Positions 1 through 34,060 of a DNA stretch of 38,399 nt are shown piece by piece (the first letter of the stretch is position 1; the number at the start of each line of letters is the position of its first letter). Location of the stretch: assembly GCA_023260435.1 (NCBI GenBank), contig JALQVG010000090.1, positions 1 to 38,399 on the forward strand. Reading direction: 5' to 3'. The position numbers were made by a program, and so were the translations under genes. The stretch is from Flavobacteriaceae bacterium. Its GTDB lineage: Bacteria; Bacteroidota; Bacteroidia; Flavobacteriales; Flavobacteriaceae. Below the pieces are notes generated by a model that searched no databases, was not told where the DNA came from, and saw only the letters and a program-made list of their open reading frames with translations.

Positions 1-1775
1 TGTGCTCCCCGAGATGGACACCGTTCCATGCTCTGGAGCCGTGACCACCGAGTAGGTTAATGTATCCCCGTCCACATCAGTGGCTGTCAGAGCTACCTCT
101 ACCGAAGTGTCTTCATCTGTAGTGGCGCTGGCTGTGGCTGATATGGGGACGTCGTTGACCGAAGTGATGATCAGGGTAACGCTCGATGTATTAGAGTCTA
201 CTAGTCCATCGCTAGCTTTAAACGTAAAGCTATCCGATCCATTGTAGTTAGCTTCTGGAGTGTAGGTAGCTATGCTCCCCGTGATGGACACTGTTCCATG
301 TTCAGGGGTGGTGACTACCGAGTAGGTTAAACTATCCCCATCTGCGTCAGTGGCGGTGAGTTGGATTTCTGCCGAAGTGTCCTCAGCTGTATTGGCGCTG
401 GCTGTGGTTGATATGGGGACATCGTTGACCGAAGTGATGATCAGGGTAACGCTCGATGTATTGGAATCTACTATTCCGTCGCTAGCTTTAAATGTAAAGC
501 TGTCTGACCCAAAGTAGTTAGCCTCTGGAGTATACGTCGCGGTGCTCCCCGAGATGGACACCGTTCCATGCTCTGGAGCGGTAACCACCGAGTAGGTTAA
601 TGTGTCTCCGTCCGCATCAGTGGCTGTCAGAGCTACCTCTACCGAAGTGTCTTCATCTGTAGTGACGCTGGATGTGGCTGAGATAGGAGCGTCGTTGACT
701 GAGGTGATGGTCAAGGTAACGCTCGATGTATTAGAGTCTACAAGTCCATCGCTAGCTTTGAACGTAAAGCTATCTGATCCGTTGTAGTTAACCTCTGGAG
801 TGTAAGTCGCTGTACTTCCCGTGATGGACACTGTTCCATGCTCAGGGGCGGTGACTACTGTAAATGTGAGTGCATCAGCGTCTGCATCAGTGGCTGTGAG
901 TTGGATTTCCACTGAGCTGTCTTCAGATGTAGTAGCGCTGACTGTTGAAGCAACAGGAGCTTCATTAACAGAAACAATAGTGATTGTTATTGAAGCTGTA
1001 TTTGAATCTAACGCTCCATCATTAGCTTTGTAGGTGAAACTATCTGATCCAGAGTAGTTTGCCTCGGGAGTATAGGTCGCTGTGCTTCCCGTTATGGACA
1101 CTGTTCCATGCTCTGGCGCAGTGACTACTAAGTAGGTTAAACTATCCCCGTCTGCATCAGTAGCTGTTAATGGTATATTTGCCTGAGCGTTTTTCAATAT
1201 TCTTGCAACTAAAGTAGACGTGACAGGAGCGTCATTAACCGAGGTGATGGTCAAGGTAATGCTCGATGTATTGGAGTCTACCGTACCATCATTGGCTTTG
1301 TAAGTGAAACTATCTGACCCAAAGTAGTTAGCTTCTGGTGTGTAGGTCGCTGTACTTCCCAAGATGGACACTGTTCCATGCTCTGGAGCAGAAACTAACG
1401 AATAAGTTAAGTCATCCTCGTCCACATCAGTGGCTGTGAGTTGGATCTCAACTGAGCTGTCTTCAGCTGTAGTGGCGCTAGCTGTGGTTGAGACAGGAAC
1501 ATCATTCACAGGTTCAATGGTGATTGTAACGGATCCAACATTGGAGTCAGCTAGCCCGTCATTGGCCTTAAATGTAAAGCTATCTGATCCATAATAGTTT
1601 TGATTAGGTGTATACGTAGCTATATTATCAGTAATGGTAACTGTACCGTTTTGAGGCAATACATCTACAAAAAATGAAAGGGGATTATTATCTGCATCTG
1701 TTCCAGACAAGTTGACAACCACAGATTCGTCTTCACTGGTACTAATCGAAATATTTTGGACAATCGGCGCAGAAT
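1..1775 (-). repeat. Exact 270-bp tandem repeat (90-aa cadherin-like units)
   Basis: The codon for the His (Asn in the first unit) of the conserved (H/N)GTV motif has its first base at 1650, 1380, 1110, 840, 570, 300 and 30, a constant 270-bp step with no indel. Each unit encodes the same frame: an N(D/S)AP-like start, an LTATDxDGD-like stretch, EHGTVSI, TYTPEANY, GSDSFT(F/Y)KANDG and a DSNT end. The first-translated unit (about 1510-1775) is the most diverged. Units near the window edge are very similar at DNA level, and 1-270 resembles 541-810 more than it resembles its neighbour 271-540. The array continues past the window edge. Confidence 0.95.
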
Positions 1776-4700
1776 TATCTAAATTTGAATTACAATAAAT
1801 TGTTAGATTGTCTAGATTCCAAGTATCAGTTGGATCGATTGCATTCATCACCGTGTAATACTTTATCCATCCATCTGATTGCACGACTTTTTTCAACCCA
1901 AAACCAATAATTCCCTCTTCATATTCATTCCCAGAATTGTCGTTTAAAATTGATAAATTAAAGTTCCTGTGTCCCCAATTTGAGGAGCTGTCATCATAAT
2001 TCCAAGAATAAATTGCATGTTCAATGGGTATTGTACTTTCTGCAGGTTTATTGGCCAGGTAGGCAAGATTTTCAGCAAAACCGTAAAACTCTGTATTGTT
2101 TTTTATCACTTGGTTAGAGTCTAATCTTTCCCATGGTGAATCAGTTTGAACCCCATTGATACTTAAGGAAAGATTATGTGTCAATCCACTATTATTTTGT
2201 GCAAGTGCATCTGCATATATCTGAGCTATCTCTGAAACTTCAGAACCTACACCTTGAAATGGAGGTAATCCCCTGGCAACTCTCTCTGAATTCAAAATAA
2301 ATAATCCTTTTTCCTGAATCGAGAGCAAAAACCATTTTTCAATTTTTTCACTCTCTGAACATATAATACCCCCATTGGGGCATACTTTGATTTTAAATTC
2401 TTCAGGTATTTCAAATGATTTATATGCTGGATAAACTGATGAATCAAGATTTCTAGCAGCTGTGAAGTTTGCTTCGATATCCGCAACACTAACAGTTACA
2501 GTAGAGCCCGACCATGCTCTATCATTAAATCCAGATGGAATAGGCAAATAATTATTGTTGTTATCTTCGTTATAGTCGTTTAACGCGGATTGATTTATTT
2601 GATTAAGCTTTGGACCACATACACATTCAATACACTCTTCATCAACTCTGTTTGAATAAATCAATTTTCTAACACCATCATACTGAACAGCGTAAAGATC
2701 TTGAAGTTGACTTTCAGGTTGCCTTTCTGACTCTAAAAATACCGGCTCAGGATTGATAAACACATTTTTAAGCTTGCCATTAACATAATTTTCATACACT
2801 ATAACGTTTGACCAATTAACTGGTGTTATCACATTATAGTCAATCTGATAAGTGCCGTCTATTATTTTTGTTTGATTCTTAAATAAATTAAAATTGTTGT
2901 CTGTTATATATTCTACTGCATCAGTGATTTTGGTTTTACCCAATTGGTTAACCTTGTTTTTATATAGGTCTATTACCTCTGAAGTCATGCTAAATGTGTC
3001 AGGACCATAGTAATCCCCGGCAACATATGTTCCCTCCTTGAAAAAACTCCATTTTTCAAAGAAATTGGTAAAATCTTTAGAAGAAGCTTTAGCAACTAAA
3101 TATGTGAAATTCAACATGGCGTGTTCTACTTCCAAATCATTTTCCGGCTTACGTGCTAAATCATGAACTTGGGGGTAGAAATCATCAATACCAAGGACCT
3201 TTGTACAATAAAGGTATAATTGCCAAAACATAGCCATCTTATCAGGAAGTTCATCGGCAAATGAATTATTTTCTACGAAAAAAGTATTCCAAGATTGTTC
3301 ATAACGTGTTCCAAAATTATCCGTGGGATTTAATTCCTTACTTAGTTCATGACCCAACTTTTCCACCCATGCATAATATGCAGAAATGTTACAGGTAGTT
3401 TCAGTTAGGTTACCCCAGTTTAACGCCTGCCTTATTTGCATACTGTGACCCCACTCATGGACAGTTCCAAAAAAATCGTCTTTAAAAAGAGTTGAATTAA
3501 AATTTTTATCCAATGTAGGAACACCCTCCCAACTACCATTGGTATCAGATACATTGAAAAATACAGCATAAGGTGAAGCGTATTTATATTTTTTATAGAC
3601 CCCTGCAATATGACTGTGATTTGGTATTTCTTTACCGGGTATATCGATATGTCCATGTATTTTTCTGGCTAGATAATTTAGCTCATCATACATATCTATG
3701 AGGTCCTTACCATTATCAGTTAATTCTTTAAAGCCGCTTAACGGAAATGTAATTTGTACGTAATCACCTATTACATCATAGTATGGGTATTGAGCGATAT
3801 CTAACAGGCCTGTCCACTCCTCCCTGTTTCGTACTCTTCCATCAAAATATCCATTAACTCTACCATACATAAAATGAAGCTGTGCCTCTGGTTCATTTTT
3901 GTAATCTTCACTCCAATACTGAACGTAAAACAATCCGTTTTGTTCCGCTTTAATTAGGTTGACCCCTTTTTTAAGCGAATAGTATACCTGTTGATCATCC
4001 AAGGGATTTACTCTTGTGTCGAAAACTGACGGATCATCTGCCTTATGTGGCCAAAAATCAACTTGCAACAGGTCAACATCTTGGTCAGAAACCACAAAAA
4101 TTTCATCATCTTTGTTGAGATAAATACCAGTTACATTACTGCACCTACTCTGAGGGTATATTTTAAGTTCATTGGAAACTTTTGAGGGGTGTCGATAGGC
4201 TTTATACGATTGAACCCTAAAATCGTGAGAGTATGACTGATTATATACCTCCTTTGCATAATTTTTAAAAAAATCATTATCAGAAATTGCATCAATCTGT
4301 TCCAATGTAACGCCCTCTTTAAGTTGCGTAAACATGCTATCAGAAAAAATAGTAGTTGGATCAAATGTAGACTGACTTGATTCCCAGAAATCAATTTCTG
4401 CAACGGTAACCATATTGTTCTGTCCAGAAATAAATTTAAATTCAACACTGGAAACATTAGGATAAGTATTACCTAAGTCAATAGTGTAATAGAAGTTCTC
4501 CTCTTCAGAGTAAGCTCTATTGAATTGAGTAAACCCATTTCCAACATTATTAAAAACCTCCTCACTTGAAGAGTCACTATAAATAACTTTGATTATTAAC
4601 TCCTTCCAGTGACCATCAACATCTACTACATCTGTTCTGGGGTAATAATCCAATTTACTCAGATTTGATGGAGATTCAAAGTTGTACTGAAGGGTTACTG

Positions 4701-4935
4701 GAAAAGTAGTTCCATCTTTAATACTGTGGTACTCAGTGCCAAGATCATTGTCGTAACTGCTGGCAGGGGAATATTTTGTGGAAGTACTTTGATTGCGGTA
4801 TTCGCTTGAAGTAGCTGATAATATCTTTATTTCCTTATGCCCAGCAGGTGAGATTGGTGTGGGTAACGTTTGGCCATACAATGATATTGCAACAAAAGAT
4901 GCTAAAAAATAAACTAAAAATTTACTAACCTTCAT
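1..4935 (-). CDS. Giant secreted M60-like metallopeptidase with CAP domain and cadherin-like repeats (C-terminus cut by window edge)
   Basis: The frame is open for 1645 codons from the ATG at 4935 to base 1 with no stop. Order of parts: signal peptide (about residues 1-21, ending near LYGQ); discoidin/F5-8C-like domain (about 28-165); M60/enhancin-type peptidase domain (about 190-650) with zinc motif HEWGH at 493-497 and a Glu at 512, which fits the family pattern HExxH(8-28)E; a Cys-rich linker (ECIECVCG); CAP/SCP domain (about 877-1045) with LNSER, a conserved His, AEN and NWGHR motifs; then cadherin-like (Big_9 type) repeats of 90 residues from about 1053 to the edge. M60 enzymes commonly cut mucin-type glycoproteins, so a surface or secreted glycoprotein-degrading role is likely but inferred. 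A T9SS tail, if present, lies outside the window. The ATG overlaps the TGA of the TetR gene upstream. The first 3 kb is AT-rich while the repeat part is less so. Confidence 0.85.
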   Translation of the reverse strand, partial: MKVSKFLVYFLASFVAISLYGQTLPTPISPAGHKEIKILSATSSEYRNQSTSTKYSPASSYDNDLGTEYHSIKDGTTFPVTLQYNFESPSNLSKLDYYPRTDVVDVDGHWKELIIKVIYSDSSSEEVFNNVGNGFTQFNRAYSEEENFYYTIDLGNTYPNVSSVEFKFISGQNNMVTVAEIDFWESSQSTFDPTTIFSDSMFTQLKEGVTLEQIDAISDNDFFKNYAKEVYNQSYSHDFRVQSYKAYRHPSKVSNELKIYPQSRCSNVTGIYLNKDDEIFVVSDQDVDLLQVDFWPHKADDPSVFDTRVNPLDDQQVYYSLKKGVNLIKAEQNGLFYVQYWSEDYKNEPEAQLHFMYGRVNGYFDGRVRNREEWTGLLDIAQYPYYDVIGDYVQITFPLSGFKELTDNGKDLIDMYDELNYLARKIHGHIDIPGKEIPNHSHIAGVYKKYKYASPYAVFFNVSDTNGSWEGVPTLDKNFNSTLFKDDFFGTVHEWGHSMQIRQALNWGNLTETTCNISAYYAWVEKLGHELSKELNPTDNFGTRYEQSWNTFFVENNSFADELPDKMAMFWQLYLYCTKVLGIDDFYPQVHDLARKPENDLEVEHAMLNFTYLVAKASSKDFTNFFEKWSFFKEGTYVAGDYYGPDTFSMTSEVIDLYKNKVNQLGKTKITDAVEYITDNNFNLFKNQTKIIDGTYQIDYNVITPVNWSNVIVYENYVNGKLKNVFINPEPVFLESERQPESQLQDLYAVQYDGVRKLIYSNRVDEECIECVCGPKLNQINQSALNDYNEDNNNNYLPIPSGFNDRAWSGSTVTVSVADIEANFTAARNLDSSVYPAYKSFEIPEEFKIKVCPNGGIICSESEKIEKWFLLSIQEKGLFILNSERVARGLPPFQGVGSEVSEIAQIYADALAQNNSGLTHNLSLSINGVQTDSPWERLDSNQVIKNNTEFYGFAENLAYLANKPAESTIPIEHAIYSWNYDDSSSNWGHRNFNLSILNDNSGNEYEEGIIGFGLKKVVQSDGWIKYYTVMNAIDPTDTWNLDNLTIYCNSNLDNSAPIVQNISISTSEDESVVVNLSGTDADNNPLSFFVDVLPQNGTVTITDNIATYTPNQNYYGSDSFTFKANDGLADSNVGSVTITIEPVNDVPVSTTASATTAEDSSVEIQLTATDVDEDDLTYSLVSAPEHGTVSILGSTATYTPEANYFGSDSFTYKANDGTVDSNTSSITLTITSVNDAPVTSTLVARILKNAQANIPLTATDADGDSLTYLVVTAPEHGTVSITGSTATYTPEANYSGSDSFTYKANDGALDSNTASITITIVSVNEAPVASTVSATTSEDSSVEIQLTATDADADALTFTVVTAPEHGTVSITGSTATYTPEVNYNGSDSFTFKASDGLVDSNTSSVTLTITSVNDAPISATSSVTTDEDTSVEVALTATDADGDTLTYSVVTAPEHGTVSISGSTATYTPEANYFGSDSFTFKASDGIVDSNTSSVTLIITSVNDVPISTTASANTAEDTSAEIQLTATDADGDSLTYSVVTTPEHGTVSITGSIATYTPEANYNGSDSFTFKASDGLVDSNTSSVTLIITSVNDVPISATASATTDEDTSVEVALTATDVDGDTLTYSVVTAPEHGTVSISGST

Positions 4936-5510
4936 TCTTGAATTATTAATCTGATAAATGCCTCTTTTCTATTATCTAAGACTTTTTGATACTCAATATT
5001 TGATATGCCCAATAACTTAGGCCCCATGGAATTCATTAAAATTGGATAATTTAGAAAGGCCACAAACAATAGTAGAATCTGCCTAGAATCCTCAATTTTT
5101 ATTTGGTTGTTTTTAATCCCGGATTCGAATAATCGCAACAGTTTTTTTAAAGTAACAAAGTCAATATTCTTCTCAATTTGTTCATTGAGTTCAATATTTT
5201 GATGAGTAGCCACATAGACTTGTCTAAATGGAAATTTCAATGTGTATTTCTGATGTATTTCAAAAATGGATCTAATCTTATTTGATAACTCTTCATCTCC
5301 ATCCAGAATCTCAGTAATCAAATTATCCCTTTCAGTTCGAGTTTCACGAATGATAGTCAGTAATAATTGGTCAACACTTTTGAAATAATAGTATATAAGC
5401 GGTCGTTTAACCCCAGCAAAATCTGCTATATCATTTGAGGTTGAATCAAATTTGCCTTTTACAAAAAGAAGTTCAATCGCTGATTTCTTTATTTTTTCTA
5501 GAGAATTCAA
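4932..5510 (-). CDS. TetR/AcrR-family transcriptional regulator
   Basis: 192 residues. The N-terminal helix-turn-helix is typical of TetR: KIKKSAIELLFVKG, then SNDIADFAGVKRPLIYYYFKS (about 8-47). The rest is a helical ligand-binding and dimer domain with no recognisable ligand signature. The only usable start is TTG at 5510, because an in-frame TAA lies four codons upstream and there is no ATG nearby. The stop overlaps the ATG of the giant M60/CAP gene (ATGA), so the two are very probably co-transcribed and translationally coupled. A perfect palindrome just upstream (5542-5555) is a good operator candidate, suggesting autoregulation and control of the surface protein. The ligand is unknown. 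Confidence 0.88.
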   Translation of the reverse strand: MNSLEKIKKSAIELLFVKGKFDSTSNDIADFAGVKRPLIYYYFKSVDQLLLTIIRETRTERDNLITEILDGDEELSNKIRSIFEIHQKYTLKFPFRQVYVATHQNIELNEQIEKNIDFVTLKKLLRLFESGIKNNQIKIEDSRQILLLFVAFLNYPILMNSMGPKLLGISNIEYQKVLDNRKEAFIRLIIQE

Positions 5511-5518
5511 AGTGAAAA

Positions 5519-5555
5519 TTTACATTTTTGTAAAAATAGTAAATAGTTAACTATT
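5519..5555 (-). promoter_or_regulatory. Candidate TetR operator/promoter region
   Basis: There is a perfect 14-bp palindrome AATAGTTAACTATT at 5542-5555 and a second inverted repeat TTTACA-TTTT-TGTAAA at 5519-5534. Read on the minus strand, TATTTTTA (5531-5538) is one base off the Bacteroidota -7 box TAnnTTTG. The palindrome would then sit between the -33 and -7 regions, where a repressor would block transcription. The leader to the TTG start would be about 14 nt, similar to other promoters in this window. The assignment is inference. Confidence 0.45.
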
Positions 5556-5937
5556 ACCTAGAATAAATTAAATCTACTCGTTTAGTAAATTAGATAACGC
5601 TCTTGATAATTAGCGTTCTTACAAATAGAATTAAATATGATAATGCTCACCCAAAGGTTTTGATTATTGGTGAAACTCATTAAAATAATGTCATATTTTG
5701 AGCTAGTGAACAAAGGCCAAAAAGGTTATCTAGTAATATTACTCAACCATTCCTCAAGAAAAATTTTACTTTAAACCAAGGTGGTCTAATAGATTAAAAG
5801 AGTTGGAATTTTTTGGGTTTTTTCGAAATAGCAGAAAACGGAAAGCCATAGATAACCGACTTGTTTGTCATCTTGCATAACTAGACAAACCCGATTAAAA
5901 AATAATTACAGCACGAAAACTGTACAAAAAACAGTTT
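5556..5937. other. AT-rich intergenic stretch without recognisable gene
   Basis: No convincing reading frame on either strand. I see only weak structure: AACGCT/AGCGTT arms around 5596-5617, GTTTGTC/GACAAAC arms around 5869-5891, and AAACTGT/ACAGTTT arms around 5917-5938. None has the stem strength plus T-run of the clear terminators elsewhere here. It separates the accessory TetR/M60 block from tRNA-Leu. Confidence 0.5.
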
Positions 5938-5981
5938 AAAAAAATAAAGCCTCTTGATAATCAACTGATTAAAAAGAGGCT
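5938..5981 (-). terminator. Rho-independent terminator after tRNA-Leu
   Basis: Arms AGCCTCTT (5948-5955) and AAGAGGCT (5974-5981) form an 8-bp stem. On the minus strand it is followed by a T-rich run (5938-5947). It lies immediately 3' of tRNA-Leu. Confidence 0.8.
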
Positions 5982-5984
5982 CTG

Positions 5985-6064
5985 TACCTTGGGTGGGAAT
6001 CGAACCCACACTCCGAAGAACTGGATTTTGAATCCAGCGCGTCTACCAATTCCGCCACCAAGGC
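5985..6064 (-). tRNA. tRNA-Leu(CAA)
   Basis: About 80 nt on the minus strand without encoded CCA. Acceptor arm GCCTTGG pairs with CCAAGGT (one G-U at the end). The D-arm is GGCGGAATTGGTAGACGC. The anticodon stem CTGGA/TCCAG encloses loop TTCAAAA, giving anticodon CAA. An extended variable arm typical of class II tRNA follows, then T-arm GTGGG-TTCGAAT-CCCAC and discriminator A. It reads UUG leucine codons. Confidence 0.95.
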
Positions 6065-8466: not shown

Positions 8467-9152
8467 TCCAAAATCTTAAAGTCAAAAACAGGAGACAAGG
8501 CGGTGTTGCCTTGAGCGTCTTCTACCTTTACTTGCCAGTAATAAGTGGTTTGGGGAGCCACGGTGAGCTGGTAGGTATTGGCCAACGGGCTTATTAATCC
8601 CACCTCTTGTAAAGGAACAGGCTGGGTATCGACGTACAAGGTATACCTGGATAAATCCCCATCGGCATCCGCGCTCTGCCAAGAAAGCAACACTTGACCC
8701 GAGGAGGGTCTGGAAAATCGGCTGCCAGGAGTAGGCTGTAAGGCCGCGGGTGTTTGAGGCACCCCCGCAGTTAAGGTACCCGCCACAAAGAAAAACCTGC
8801 GTTCACTGAGCGAGGTCTCGGTCACCTGATTGTTGGAGGCGATGACTTGCCAAGAATAGGCTTTATACGTGGGTAACTTAAAAACAACCGTCGTTTGACT
8901 CACCACTTCAGAACGGATTTGGGTATTATCGATTTGGATTACAGAGACAGTATAGGCATCTGTATGGTCCGAAGGGGTCCAAGAAAAAGATACCGAGCGC
9001 GTACCGTCAGGCAGTAGCGGTCCGCTCGCACAAGATTCATCCACCGCTGGAGTCAATAGGGAAACAGGCCCTGGTGGACTGGGTTCTTGGGTACAAGAAA
9101 CCGCCAAAACAGCTGCCAGGCACCAGGCCCAAAACGTTACTTTTTGATCCAT
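8463..9152 (-). CDS. Lipoprotein with two fibronectin type III-like domains
   Basis: 229 residues. The N-terminus is a lipoprotein signal peptide ending in lipobox AVSC with Cys20. Two FN3-like beta-sandwich domains follow: about 40-125 (SVSFSWTPSDHTDAYTVSV, ending in a YSWQV edge strand) and about 140-228 (GQVLLSWQSADADGDLSRY, ending in YYWQVKVEDAQGN). No catalytic motif is seen. Its ATG lies inside the end of the upstream metzincin protease gene (16-bp overlap), so the two are expected to be made together. It may be an outer-membrane partner or surface anchor for the protease; that role is inferred from position only. Confidence 0.85.
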   Translation of the reverse strand: MDQKVTFWAWCLAAVLAVSCTQEPSPPGPVSLLTPAVDESCASGPLLPDGTRSVSFSWTPSDHTDAYTVSVIQIDNTQIRSEVVSQTTVVFKLPTYKAYSWQVIASNNQVTETSLSERRFFFVAGTLTAGVPQTPAALQPTPGSRFSRPSSGQVLLSWQSADADGDLSRYTLYVDTQPVPLQEVGLISPLANTYQLTVAPQTTYYWQVKVEDAQGNTALSPVFDFKILD

Positions 9153-12100
9153 TTATAGCTTTGTTTTTGATCTGCGATGATTAATTCAAGTATATATATA
9201 CCCTCGGGATATCCCGCCACTGGGATGGAGCGTGATTCCGGATCGGTTTCGGGATTCCACACTCCTTGGTCCACAAGGGTTCCAGACAGGTCCAAAATCC
9301 TCCACAGGCGCTCAACTTTAGGGAGTTGGGGCGCGTAAATATTCAGGTAGTTTTCGGCTGGATTGGGATGTAATACAGGGTCTGGACTGTAATACCACTC
9401 CTGCACAAATTCACCCTGACAAGGTAGATCGGTGTTGATTTTCAGGGTATTCACCCCTGGCTTAAACGGCCATGACTGCTGACCAGCCTCCGTGGCAAAT
9501 TCCTGCCCATTCAACGTGACCAGATAGCGTTCTGCACCTGAAAGCGTCACTTGCCATTGCATTCCATCAGCAGAAGCAGCCGTGAGCACACTCAAGGGCT
9601 GTGGCGCCCCGATGACCACAAGAAAACATTGCTGCTCGTAGGTCACGTCAGCATTTACGGCCCAAATACACAAGGTATAAATGCCTTGAGCTAACGACTC
9701 AAAAGCGTATTGACTCGTGAATGACACCTCCTTAACCAGGTTGTTTTCGCGATATAATTGGGCGTTGTATGGCAGGACAGATCTGGCTTGAATCAATACA
9801 CGGCCATCAGCGACATCCACACAAGACTGGGTTTTGGTGGTCAAACTATAATGGTTGGCTGGCAGGCGGTAAACGGGACATCCTTGACTGTTGACCTCAG
9901 CCCCTAGTGGTGTTCCCAAACACAAATCATCTCCGTCATCAAAAACACCATCCCGGTCGGCATCTGGCCTAATCGCTCCCAAAACACAGGCCTCTATGGA
10001 AAATGAACTAATGCTTCCGCCGTCCTGAGGATATTGATCCTCCACTTCAAGGACCCAAGTGCCCTGAAGCGATGTGCCTCTAAAAATAGAAAGCGGCGAT
10101 TGGGGCATGATGGTCCCCGTCAAGGCGGGAATGGTTGAATTACAGATCAACGGATTACCGTCATCAGAGAACACGACCGACATATTTCGGCCATCATCAC
10201 AAGGATTAGACACTAAAGGAAGACGCACGCCCTCTGGACTAACCAACGTGAGCACCAAATCTGACAGCCAGGTGTGGTTAATCCCCACACTGACTTTAAG
10301 CGACTCGATGGGCAGATCTATATCAAATGTGGTGGAAACACACTGGGTGTTGGCCTGTGCGGAGGCAATCGTTTTGGGCAACCCAACCCCTTGTTCGGTG
10401 ACACAAGTGGCTGCTCTGGTGGTGAACGAATAAATCGATCCAAATTCACCGTTGCTACACGCGTTAAACGGCTGAATCTGCCAGTAATAGGTGGTACCTG
10501 GATCCAAGTCGGGCAATCTAGTTCCCGCAGAATAAGTAATGGTGGTGCCCAAAGGTTGAGATCCATCCGCTTGTTTGGACCAGCGCACTTTATAACCAGA
10601 GGCATTGGTCAAAGGGGTCCAAGTCAAATTGACTTGAGTGTCTTGTTCTACTGCTTGATTTTGTGGGGTATTGGCCACCACAGCAGACCACACACCATTG
10701 TACACGCGAATTCGGTACGGAAGCGTCTGTGTTCGGGATCCCGCACTTGCCTTGAGGGTTACTGTGTAGGTACCCGCGGTTAAGTTAGGCGCCGTAGTCA
10801 CCTCAAGCTGTACCGCTGATTGATCTCCGGTAAGTTGGTTGGAGGTCAATTGAAGTCCTAATCCAGGTACAGATCCTTCCACAGACAAGTCAATCGGATC
10901 ACTAAAGCCAGCATCTCTGGTCAAAGAAGTGTATAAGGTCATGGTACCCCCTGTACAGGTGGACACGTCTAGCTGAGTGGGTTGCACGACAAATGACTGA
11001 GGCTGAATGGTAAACGAGACAGGACTTACAGAAAAAAATGCTCCGTCTACTGCAGCGACCATAATTCTGGCTTGCGCGGTATTGACCAGCGGAAGTACAA
11101 CGGATGATTGACCGTTGTTGGGCACTGCGTGGGCCAATAGGGTCGGAAAACTAATCCCCCCATTCGTGGATAACCAAATGGACACATTGGATTCCTGCAT
11201 GGATCCTCGGTCAGTTCCAGCTACCGACCAAAGAATCTCGGCTACTGCTCCAGACTGATATACCACATTGCTGGACGGGGTCTGAACCGCAAAAGGACCC
11301 GAATTAGGGTCGACCACTACTTCGGTCAATCCCTGTTCGACGCCTCCAGACACCGGATGATTATCCCGTACCGTCAATAAAAAATGGTACTTTCTAGGTA
11401 GCGCCGATAAGGTCTCCCAACCAAAGGAAACCGAAGGGGTTTCGTTGAGTAATCGCCCTTGGGCTATGGCAGAGAGTGCCGGAAAATAACGAGTACCTGT
11501 GGGTTGTGAAGGAAACGACCTAAAGGCAGGGCCGCTTAGGTTATCAGGACCAAACTGGTCTACACCCATCAAACCAGCATCAACTTGTTCCCAATTATAG
11601 GTCACCGTGGCGCTCTCCGAATCGACAGCAGCTCCTTTTAAGACAAATGGAGTCGCCTTGGGCACCAAGATGCGCTCGGCGATTTGGGTGATTTCAGGTG
11701 CGGTATTAGGCACAGCCGTCGAAACCCCACAGGCTTGGGAACTTAGATAATTAACGATTTGGATGATGGATATTCCATGGAAATAATCTGAAGACGAAAA
11801 CGCTACATTGTTGGTTCCTACCAATCCCGCGTAGCTCATAATCGTCGTTCCACTACCCGGTTCTACTTGGGCAATAGTACCTTCCGATTCATAGGCAAAA
11901 CTGTGGTTGGCACCCAATTGGTGACCTATTTCGTGTGCGACATAGTCAATGTCAAAACGCTCCCCTTCCGGATTGGCTCCAGAAGTAAACGCCGCTCCTT
12001 TTTTGCTGTCTTGGCACAGAGACCCAATATATCCCGCGTTTCCGTTATTGGATCCTTGATGAAAAAGGTGACCCAAGTCGTACAGCGTTGGGCCGATTAC

Positions 12101-12910
12101 CGAGCGCAATGTGGCCTCTATTTCCTCATTTAAATCACCGTTGCCAAATGGATCCAGGGTGGCGTCTGTGTAAATTACCTGAGTGGTTTGCTCGATGAGC
12201 TCCAATTTTAGCCCTAAATCGCGTACAAAAACCATATTGACTCGGGTCAAGGTGGCGTTGATCGCTTCCAAAGCACCAGCTACCGTTCCCCCGTGGTAGG
12301 TCGTATACTCCCCTGAAGCAGCCACCGCCATGCGAAAAGTGCGCAGATTAACCGGAGTTCCTACAGCCGTGGATGCGGTATTTTTGGCGCTGAGGGATCC
12401 TGATCCTTCCGGAGTGCCACAAAAAAAAGAAGGATCTGGCGCCTGGTATTTGGCGGTGTATTGGAGGTGTTTCCCTGTGCCTTTTACGGGGTCCATAAAC
12501 ACATACTCCTGCGCTCTGCCGTCCCAAATCGAAGCGTGAATTCCATGGGGACCCTGGCTAAACCACAAGTGTTGATCGGCTTTAGTAGGGTGTTGGGCTC
12601 GAAAACTTCTCAACTCAGGGAATTGGAGGCGTAATTCCTCGCTCAATGCGTCAAAGGGAGTAACCTCCCAGGCAGTCACCTCGCCCTGAGCATCTGGCAG
12701 GTACCAAAAATCCTGGGCTATTTTTTGTGCGGACACACCCCCACCTACCCCAGACCAAGTCCACCAACTCCGAATCGCTTCGGGAGATTGGGCGAGTTGT
12801 ATCTCAGCGGCATTGGAGGCTTCAACTTGCTGCCAGGGAGTTTGGGCCCAGGCCATAAAGGCGAAAAAAAAGAGGGAAATTGAAAAAAGGAACCTTAATT
12901 TTGTACGCAT
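9137..12910 (-). CDS. Secreted reprolysin-like metzincin protease with P-domain and T9SS sorting domain
   Basis: 1257 residues. Signal peptide of about 22 residues (cut near AWAQ). A propeptide region runs to about 190. The metzincin catalytic domain (about 190-400) has zinc motif HEIGHQLGANH at 326-336 and the Met-turn IMSY with Met358. After it come Ig/FN3-like beta domains, including one at about 743-835 (VNLTWTPLTNASGYKVRW). A proprotein-convertase-type P-domain follows (about 850-985, with HTWLSDLVLTLVSPEG and GTWVLEVED), then a calcium-loop-like segment DADRDGVFDDGDD. A type IX secretion C-terminal sorting domain closes the protein (about 1175-1257: LHPNPAENYLNIY to YKWIKK). It is expected to leave the cell through the T9SS, of which porV and gldJ are encoded in this window. 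The substrate is unknown. Confidence 0.93.
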   Translation of the reverse strand: MRTKLRFLFSISLFFFAFMAWAQTPWQQVEASNAAEIQLAQSPEAIRSWWTWSGVGGGVSAQKIAQDFWYLPDAQGEVTAWEVTPFDALSEELRLQFPELRSFRAQHPTKADQHLWFSQGPHGIHASIWDGRAQEYVFMDPVKGTGKHLQYTAKYQAPDPSFFCGTPEGSGSLSAKNTASTAVGTPVNLRTFRMAVAASGEYTTYHGGTVAGALEAINATLTRVNMVFVRDLGLKLELIEQTTQVIYTDATLDPFGNGDLNEEIEATLRSVIGPTLYDLGHLFHQGSNNGNAGYIGSLCQDSKKGAAFTSGANPEGERFDIDYVAHEIGHQLGANHSFAYESEGTIAQVEPGSGTTIMSYAGLVGTNNVAFSSSDYFHGISIIQIVNYLSSQACGVSTAVPNTAPEITQIAERILVPKATPFVLKGAAVDSESATVTYNWEQVDAGLMGVDQFGPDNLSGPAFRSFPSQPTGTRYFPALSAIAQGRLLNETPSVSFGWETLSALPRKYHFLLTVRDNHPVSGGVEQGLTEVVVDPNSGPFAVQTPSSNVVYQSGAVAEILWSVAGTDRGSMQESNVSIWLSTNGGISFPTLLAHAVPNNGQSSVVLPLVNTAQARIMVAAVDGAFFSVSPVSFTIQPQSFVVQPTQLDVSTCTGGTMTLYTSLTRDAGFSDPIDLSVEGSVPGLGLQLTSNQLTGDQSAVQLEVTTAPNLTAGTYTVTLKASAGSRTQTLPYRIRVYNGVWSAVVANTPQNQAVEQDTQVNLTWTPLTNASGYKVRWSKQADGSQPLGTTITYSAGTRLPDLDPGTTYYWQIQPFNACSNGEFGSIYSFTTRAATCVTEQGVGLPKTIASAQANTQCVSTTFDIDLPIESLKVSVGINHTWLSDLVLTLVSPEGVRLPLVSNPCDDGRNMSVVFSDDGNPLICNSTIPALTGTIMPQSPLSIFRGTSLQGTWVLEVEDQYPQDGGSISSFSIEACVLGAIRPDADRDGVFDDGDDLCLGTPLGAEVNSQGCPVYRLPANHYSLTTKTQSCVDVADGRVLIQARSVLPYNAQLYRENNLVKEVSFTSQYAFESLAQGIYTLCIWAVNADVTYEQQCFLVVIGAPQPLSVLTAASADGMQWQVTLSGAERYLVTLNGQEFATEAGQQSWPFKPGVNTLKINTDLPCQGEFVQEWYYSPDPVLHPNPAENYLNIYAPQLPKVERLWRILDLSGTLVDQGVWNPETDPESRSIPVAGYPEGIYILELIIADQKQSYKWIKK
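12896..12903 (+). promoter_or_regulatory. -7 box of ribF promoter
   Basis: TAATTTTG is an exact TAnnTTTG match, inside the first codons of the divergent protease gene. Transcription would start near 12910, which argues that ribF starts downstream of that point. Confidence 0.5.
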
Positions 12911-32404: not shown

Positions 32405-34060
32405 ATGATGCATACCAGACGTGCGGTTTTTTTAGCGGCAACTTGCTCAGCACTATTGGCCTTGGGAAGCTGTAAGAACAGCGCCTCCAAAAACGAATCA
32501 AGAGCTACTGGATGGAGTTTAAACGACAAAAACAGTCCTTTGAGCCAACCCAAAAGTAGCCAAGCGCAAAAAACTGGACCTGGATTGGTCTTTATCGAAG
32601 GGGGGTCCTTTGTAAAGGGACGTGTTCAAGACGATATCATGCGCGACTGGAACAATACCCCTACCCAACAACACGTCCAGTCTTTTTACATGGACGAAAC
32701 AGAGGTAACCAACGCCATGTACCTGGAGTTTTTAGAGTATATCAAAGCTGTTTACCCACCTTCTAACCCTAAATATGACGGTATTTACCAAAGCGCCTTA
32801 CCCGACACCTTGGTGTGGCGCAACCGACTTTCTTACAATGAGGATTTGGTAGAAAACTACTTGAGACATCCCGCCTTTGCGGATTTCCCAGTCGTAGGTG
32901 TGAGCTGGTTACAAGCACAGAGATTTGCCCAGTGGAGAACCAATCGTGTGAATGAATTACTCTTGGAAGAAAATGGCTTCCTGGAAAAAGACGCCAGATT
33001 TAAACCTCTGGAAAATGAGATGGTGGCCTTTGACACAGAGGCCTATTTAAAAAATCCAAATGCAGCGTATGGAGGTGCTATTGATTCTTTGGCCAGAAGA
33101 GCCTCCAGAGATACCATCCCTTCTTTTGCCAAATTAAGCGATGGCGTTTTGTTACCCGCTTATCGACTACCCACGGAGACAGAATGGGAATACGCCGCTC
33201 AAGCCCCTGGCAGTCAGCGCGAATTCAACAATTATAAAGGAAGAAAGAAATTTCCCTGGGAGGGAAATCAAACTAGAGATACGGACCGCAGAGTATTGGG
33301 CGATCAGCTGGCCAACTTCAAAAAAGGCAAAGGTGACTACGGCGGTATTGCCGGTTGGTCAGAAGATGGTGGCTCTGTCACCACACCTGTGAAAATGCAT
33401 CCAGCCAATGATTTTGGCCTTTACGGTATGGGAGGCAACGTAGCTGAATGGGTGGCTGACGTGTACCGACCCATCATCGACAGCGATTACAGCGACTTCA
33501 ATTATTACCGAGGTAATGTATTCCAAAAAGCAGCTATCGGTAAGGATGGAAAAGTGGCTGTGCTCCAGGAAGGAATCGAATTTGACACACTTCCCAACGG
33601 CAAATTATCGGTAAAGAGATTACCTGGCGAAGTAGTCAAAGTACCTGTAGGTAATGAAGATACCTTTATGCGCTTCAATTATTCAGAAAGCGACAACAGA
33701 AACTTTAATGACGGTGATTTGGCCTCCTCCAGAGGATACAACCGCTACAACGAAGAAAACACCGACAAAAACCGCATGTACAACGCGCCCAAACCTTTGG
33801 TCGCCCGCGACAGCACCGGTGGGTTGATTTTGGAATACGACAAATCCAATAACCGAAGCTCCATGATTACCAACGATGTGCGCGTCTACAAAGGCGCCTC
33901 GTGGAAAGATCGAGCTTACTGGCTGGATCCTGCTCAAAGAAGGTATATGCCAGAGTATATGTCTACTGATTTTATCGGGTTTAGATGCGCTATGTCTTAT
34001 TTAGGCAGCAAACCTAAGTCCCTGAACCGTACCCCAAAAAGCAAAACGGCCAAAAAGTGA
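32405..34060 (+). CDS. gldJ: Gliding motility/T9SS lipoprotein GldJ
   Basis: 551 residues, near the length of known GldJ. The lipoprotein signal ends in ALGSC with Cys23. The body is a formylglycine-generating-enzyme (SUMF1)-like fold: GPGLVFIEGGSFVKG, YMDETEVTNAMYLEF, FPVVGVSWLQAQRFAQWRTN, RLPTETEWEYAA, GLYGMGGNVAEWVADVYRP, then GASWKDRAYWLDPAQRRY and GFRCAMSY. The FGE catalytic Cys pair is not evident, as expected for GldJ/GldK. GldJ stabilises other Gld proteins and the GldK-N ring of the T9SS. The length and the murF neighbour favour GldJ over GldK, which normally heads a gldKLMN run. ATG at 32405 or 32408 are both possible. Confidence 0.9.
   Translation: MMHTRRAVFLAATCSALLALGSCKNSASKNESRATGWSLNDKNSPLSQPKSSQAQKTGPGLVFIEGGSFVKGRVQDDIMRDWNNTPTQQHVQSFYMDETEVTNAMYLEFLEYIKAVYPPSNPKYDGIYQSALPDTLVWRNRLSYNEDLVENYLRHPAFADFPVVGVSWLQAQRFAQWRTNRVNELLLEENGFLEKDARFKPLENEMVAFDTEAYLKNPNAAYGGAIDSLARRASRDTIPSFAKLSDGVLLPAYRLPTETEWEYAAQAPGSQREFNNYKGRKKFPWEGNQTRDTDRRVLGDQLANFKKGKGDYGGIAGWSEDGGSVTTPVKMHPANDFGLYGMGGNVAEWVADVYRPIIDSDYSDFNYYRGNVFQKAAIGKDGKVAVLQEGIEFDTLPNGKLSVKRLPGEVVKVPVGNEDTFMRFNYSESDNRNFNDGDLASSRGYNRYNEENTDKNRMYNAPKPLVARDSTGGLILEYDKSNNRSSMITNDVRVYKGASWKDRAYWLDPAQRRYMPEYMSTDFIGFRCAMSYLGSKPKSLNRTPKSKTAKK

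Follow-up and report, generated by a model that had tools for sequence, protein, structure and literature searches.

A putative T9SS-exported, horizontally acquired M60 glycopeptidase with apparently altered sugar recognition and a CAP-like accessory domain in a Flavobacteriaceae genome

Peptidases of the M60 type serve as tools for mapping O-glycoproteins, and most of those studied come from animal-associated bacteria and read O-linked GalNAc. At one end of a contig of 38,399 bp from a Flavobacteriaceae bacterium, which at its full length is the window analysed here, lies a gene in which such a peptidase is followed by a putative CAP domain and a long row of repeats, and this raises the question of what an M60 enzyme of such a build would cut, how it would reach its target and where it came from. 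As far as sequence comparison can tell, the reading that we prefer, with a probability of roughly 0.6, is that of an M60 glycopeptidase that is exported by the T9SS, was acquired horizontally, recognises sugar in an altered way and has CAP as an accessory domain.

The M60-CAP gene fills positions 1..4935 of the minus strand and encodes a probably secreted, multi-domain protein of at least 1645 aa. The single frame of at least 1645 codons that had been claimed is indeed open from 4935 to 1 and exits at the contig end, with the 3' end missing. On inspection of the sequence, residues 1-21 (MKVSKFLVYFLASFVAISLYG; 4873..4935) look like a signal peptide. They are followed by a discoidin or CBM32-like domain (residues about 42-185; 4381..4812), for which the F5/8-C profile stays below its cut-off (24.3 bits against 28.2, with E 3.7e-5 on the excised piece), whereas phmmer matches it, at E 3e-21, to N-terminal stretches of further M60 proteins from Bacteroidota. 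This domain is probably a glycan holder on the target.

How rare is this architecture? A genome scan of 84,980 species, relying on short peptide patterns that distant relatives may escape, returned one relative, the ortholog L004 from the Flavobacteriaceae MAG SFB_South_Co_17, which is 72% identical in the best segment. Like the window protein, it has a discoidin-like region, an M60 domain with Phe at the position discussed below and a CAP domain, but it has no repeats and bears a T9SS tail directly after CAP. Its frame is interrupted once (L004:1169-1184), between the discoidin-like and M60 domains, perhaps by a sequencing error. Relatives with M60 and CAP together were found neither in 148 other genomes of the family nor in 11 other genomes of the genus, true relatives of the CAP module were found in none of 394 other genomes of the class, and a CAP domain occurred in 0 of 24 other M60 proteins from the order and the phylum within the sequence fetched. 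In collections of phages and plasmids, a single plasmid match, of 22%, turned up over the peptidase. Two matches to the CAP module were set aside as unrelated: that in G863 is a Big_9-type repeat protein, and a viral one (L023) is weak and lies in a frame of 171 aa. Moreover, CAP is not among the partner domains listed in a 2012 survey of 415 M60-like proteins (PMC3267712), and the earlier suspicion that M60 and CAP are seldom combined has thus been confirmed at this scale. The discoidin-M60 proteins of a related genus in the same order (L005-L018) share with the window protein the N-terminal discoidin-like region, the M60 domain and mostly a T9SS-type tail, but they have two discoidin-like regions, keep the Trp treated below, showed no CAP domain and form a separate clade (99/98 support).

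The CAP/SCP domain, at residues about 868-1036 (1828..2334), was placed by profile comparisons. Pfam makes no PF00188 match in the window protein, and in L004 the match remains below the cut-off (E 0.033; 15.5 bits against 21.1); TIGR04320 (PgrA) reaches E 2.9e-4 in the window protein and 7.6e-7 in L004, which is also below the family cut-off. When a CAP profile of the two proteins was compared by hhalign with 28 Bacteroidota CAP domains, the score was 33.5 (E 4e-5), as against a maximum of 19.7 in 150 column shuffles, 11.2 for the reversed sequence and 10 to 16 for other parts of the protein. In the profile alignment, H920, E955 (in AENL) and H989 (in WGHR) match the first CAP histidine, the Glu-Asn pair and the Gly-His motif. 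Since the profile match exceeds the shuffle controls, the assignment of residues 868-1036 as a remote CAP homolog is well supported at the level of sequence, and the CAP domain proposed earlier stands by the agreement of TIGR04320, the PF00188 match in the ortholog and the shuffle-controlled hhalign score, in spite of the missing Pfam call. AlphaFold models of residues 637-1056 and 860-1050, with two sequences as input, had low pLDDT of 31 and 34, so that the fold itself is only presumed. The top library match of the region is to the PgrA/SEC10 surface-exclusion proteins (TIGR04320), which are likewise long surface proteins but, unlike the window protein, belong to Gram-positive conjugation and have no peptidase. 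What is more, the CAP region is 80% identical between the window protein and L004 and the peptidase about 76%; conservation of the CAP part is thus no lower than that of the peptidase, which points to functional constraint, and CAP is a conserved core part, most likely acting as a ligand- or surface-binding accessory. PF00188 matches on two further contigs of the same genome (C121 and C113) are weak and were rejected as aminotransferase-like false positives.

The peptidase itself is clear. M60-like_N (residues 252-353; 3877..4182; PF17291, E 1e-6) precedes the Peptidase M60 catalytic domain (residues 368-630; 3046..3834), which matches PF13402 at E 2.8e-21 with 76.7 bits against a curated cut-off of 25.8 and also aligns with BcM60C. 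When the domain was aligned with BcM60C and 21 further M60 domains, the HEWGH zinc and catalytic motif fell at H493-H497 (3445..3459) and the third zinc ligand E512 together with the sugar-site N516 at 3388-3402; the ligands H493, H497 and E512 and the base E494 are intact in both the window protein and L004, so the M60 peptidase with HEWGH...E that had been read from the letters was correctly recognised. Behind the catalytic domain lies a post-peptidase region (residues 641-762; 2650..3015), which in its first part can be aligned to the C-terminal portion of BcM60C. Adhesins often contain tandem-95 repeats and discoidin domains, and these, together with the altered sugar pocket described below, speak for a protein that is mainly an adhesin, in which M60 and CAP would be binding modules on a repeat stalk and catalysis would be secondary or absent. 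That neither member has lost any zinc or catalytic residue, and that L004 keeps the peptidase without any repeats, makes such an adhesin very unlikely.

Turning to the substrate, AM0627 and BT4244 hold the GalNAc beside the cut by a Trp, an Asn, an Arg and an aromatic residue, the Trp of this G1' site being Trp321 in AM0627 and Trp570 in BT4244 (PMC9325726). In the window protein the Asn is kept as N516 and Tyr453 is plausible for the aromatic position; the GalNAc-contacting Arg is not clearly aligned, its position falling on Ser532 beside Lys533, and in place of the expected Trp stands Phe489 (3469..3471), four residues before HExxH, so the complete Trp/Asn/Arg/aromatic set is not present. 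Phe is found in L004 too. Of the other M60 domains sampled from the clade, 21 of 21 retain the Trp, a count that leaves out three divergent M60 matches (L014, L015 and L078), and so do BT4244, AM0627, ZmpB, ZmpC and IMPa. BcM60C and BcM60K (PDB 9pl8, 9pl7) and BT4244 (5kd2, 5kd8) share with the window protein M60-like_N plus M60, at E 2.7e-57 and about 32% identity for BcM60C, as well as HExxH with a third Glu, the sugar-site Asn and an alignable post-peptidase region. The window protein differs from these three by Phe for Trp, by a longer insert before the catalytic helix and by the attached CAP domain and tandem-95 repeats. In the tree, the window protein and L004 are closest to the Bacteroides-type enzymes, a grouping with weak support (86/64), and sit on a long branch of 1.75 changes per site.

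Because the GalNAc-binding Trp is Phe in both proteins, mucin specificity is not to be assumed; the M60 homology behind the earlier term "mucin-cutting" is real, but the specificity in that term cannot be read from homology alone. Glycan recognition is probably altered, toward a preferred O-glycan other than plain animal-mucin GalNAc or toward a looser dependence on sugar, on a Phe/Trp reading that rests on alignment and for which other residues could compensate. An ordinary mucinase, which would cut fish or invertebrate mucin beside O-GalNAc as BT4244 and AM0627 do, with Phe489 harmless and CAP neutral, would agree with the facts that the nearest solved relatives are mucin O-glycopeptidases, that Asn516 and the zinc site are retained and that M60-like proteins are most often partnered by discoidin/CBM32, a domain tied to mucosal niches (PMC3267712). 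The loss in both members of a Trp otherwise so constant, the alignment of the Arg position to Ser532 and the long branch of the pair are at odds with it, and we regard it as unlikely. An altered, non-mucin pocket may be taken further, to a new branch of M60 glycopeptidases in which the Trp of the GalNAc pocket was changed to Phe for a different O-glycan, e.g. on microbial or algal glycoproteins, with CAP built in as a module that binds ligand or substrate; this we offer as a tentative possibility, somewhat doubtful at present.

The C-terminal part, from about residue 1054, consists of seven Big_9/Cadherin_4 stretches by Pfam, which are tandem-95 repeats by NCBIfam (E 3.6e-99). Six full repeats and one cut by the contig end occupy 1..1776, in keeping with the "at least six" counted before; "cadherin-like" was a fair label for them, with tandem-95/Big_9 being more exact. 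L004 has no repeats and keeps discoidin, M60 and CAP, which argues for M60 plus CAP as the core and for a stalk that can be dispensed with: the stalk noted earlier as part of the enzyme is real here but nonessential, and the repeats would be an optional extension that could serve as a stalk. Their composition is uneven, as fourfold-site GC is 0.33 in repeat 1 and has climbed to 0.56 by repeat 7. This shift, the end of the contig within the repeats, the lack of repeats in L004 and the presence of a second tandem-95 gene in the genome could all be explained if the AT-rich M60-CAP part had been joined to the repeats as an assembly chimera at a repeat collapse. However, the reading frame is continuous over the junction, and repeat 1 shares the AT-richness of the M60-CAP part and has an identity of only 56-59% with the remaining repeats, hence no long identical stretch exists at the junction; a chimera is therefore highly improbable. 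The second gene, on contig C52 (21801-24404; L043:6739-12999), encodes tandem cadherin-like repeats in a protein of more than 2087 aa that nears the contig end and also holds several other extracellular-looking stretches; it was considered as a part of the M60-CAP gene and rejected as a separate protein.

As for the origin of the gene, GC in the M60-CAP part is 35% overall and about 0.2 at fourfold sites, in comparison with 46% and 0.45-0.55 in neighbouring genes. Directly upstream lies a gene of 30% GC for a TetR-type regulator (4932..5510, minus strand; Pfam TetR_N, E 5e-7), whose stop overlaps the M60 start in ATGA. The AT-rich stretch starts directly behind a tRNA-Leu (CAA) at 5984..6064 on the minus strand, which marks the edge of an AT-rich variable region that includes 5511-5983. 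In seven congeneric genomes (L097-L103) this tRNA-Leu is conserved beside a PRPP synthetase gene and the AT-rich cargo behind it differs in most, comprising an AcrB-type efflux system, a heavy-metal ATPase region common to two of them and a two-component-propeller protein; in one relative the frame of a large serine recombinase (L097:6209-7876) extends into the tRNA-Leu. Because the tRNA-Leu is conserved while the adjoining cargo varies, the site is, on this comparison, a hotspot for imported DNA in the genus. The M60-CAP part and the TetR gene apparently arrived there by horizontal transfer, on an island of which one end is visible within the window. The locus of L004 has unrelated neighbours and no upstream TetR gene, which fits a mobile gene.

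Putting these parts together, the protein would be led by its signal peptide to the periplasm and then leave by type IX secretion; the discoidin domain would bind the target glycan, CAP would perhaps bind lipid or another surface ligand, as in eukaryotic CAP biology (PMC4921858), and the tandem-95 repeats would supply reach as a stalk. By homology with characterised enzymes (PMC13355702), M60 would cut a glycosylated peptide backbone, zinc being bound by H493, H497 and E512 and E494 acting as the base. The Phe489 pocket with Asn516 may read another O-glycan or depend less strictly on sugar. TetR would regulate the M60-CAP gene. The novelty lies in an M60 plus CAP core that needs no repeats in the ortholog, in the change from Trp to Phe in both proteins and in the placement of an AT-rich gene at a hotspot. 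If the pocket is truly changed, the protein is a candidate O-glycoprotease of new specificity, and it also provides a tractable setting for asking what bacterial CAP domains do.

With respect to export, the C-terminus of L004 is a Por_Secre_tail type IX sorting domain (E 1e-12), the genome of the window encodes SprA (E 5e-131) and the window holds another T9SS cargo, which makes T9SS export of the window copy plausible; the surface or secreted location supposed earlier is likely in view of the signal peptide, the tail of L004 and SprA. Contig C45 begins with a T9SS-tailed fragment that came into question as the missing 3' end; it contains no tandem-95 repeat and was therefore not taken as linked to the gene. 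The second secreted protease on the contig is a reprolysin-like M12B metalloprotease with P-domain, fn3 and T9SS sorting tail, at 9137-12910 on the minus strand. Further along, at 32405-34060 on the plus strand, lies a gene for an FGE-sulfatase-domain protein, possibly a gliding/T9SS lipoprotein of the GldJ/GldK type.
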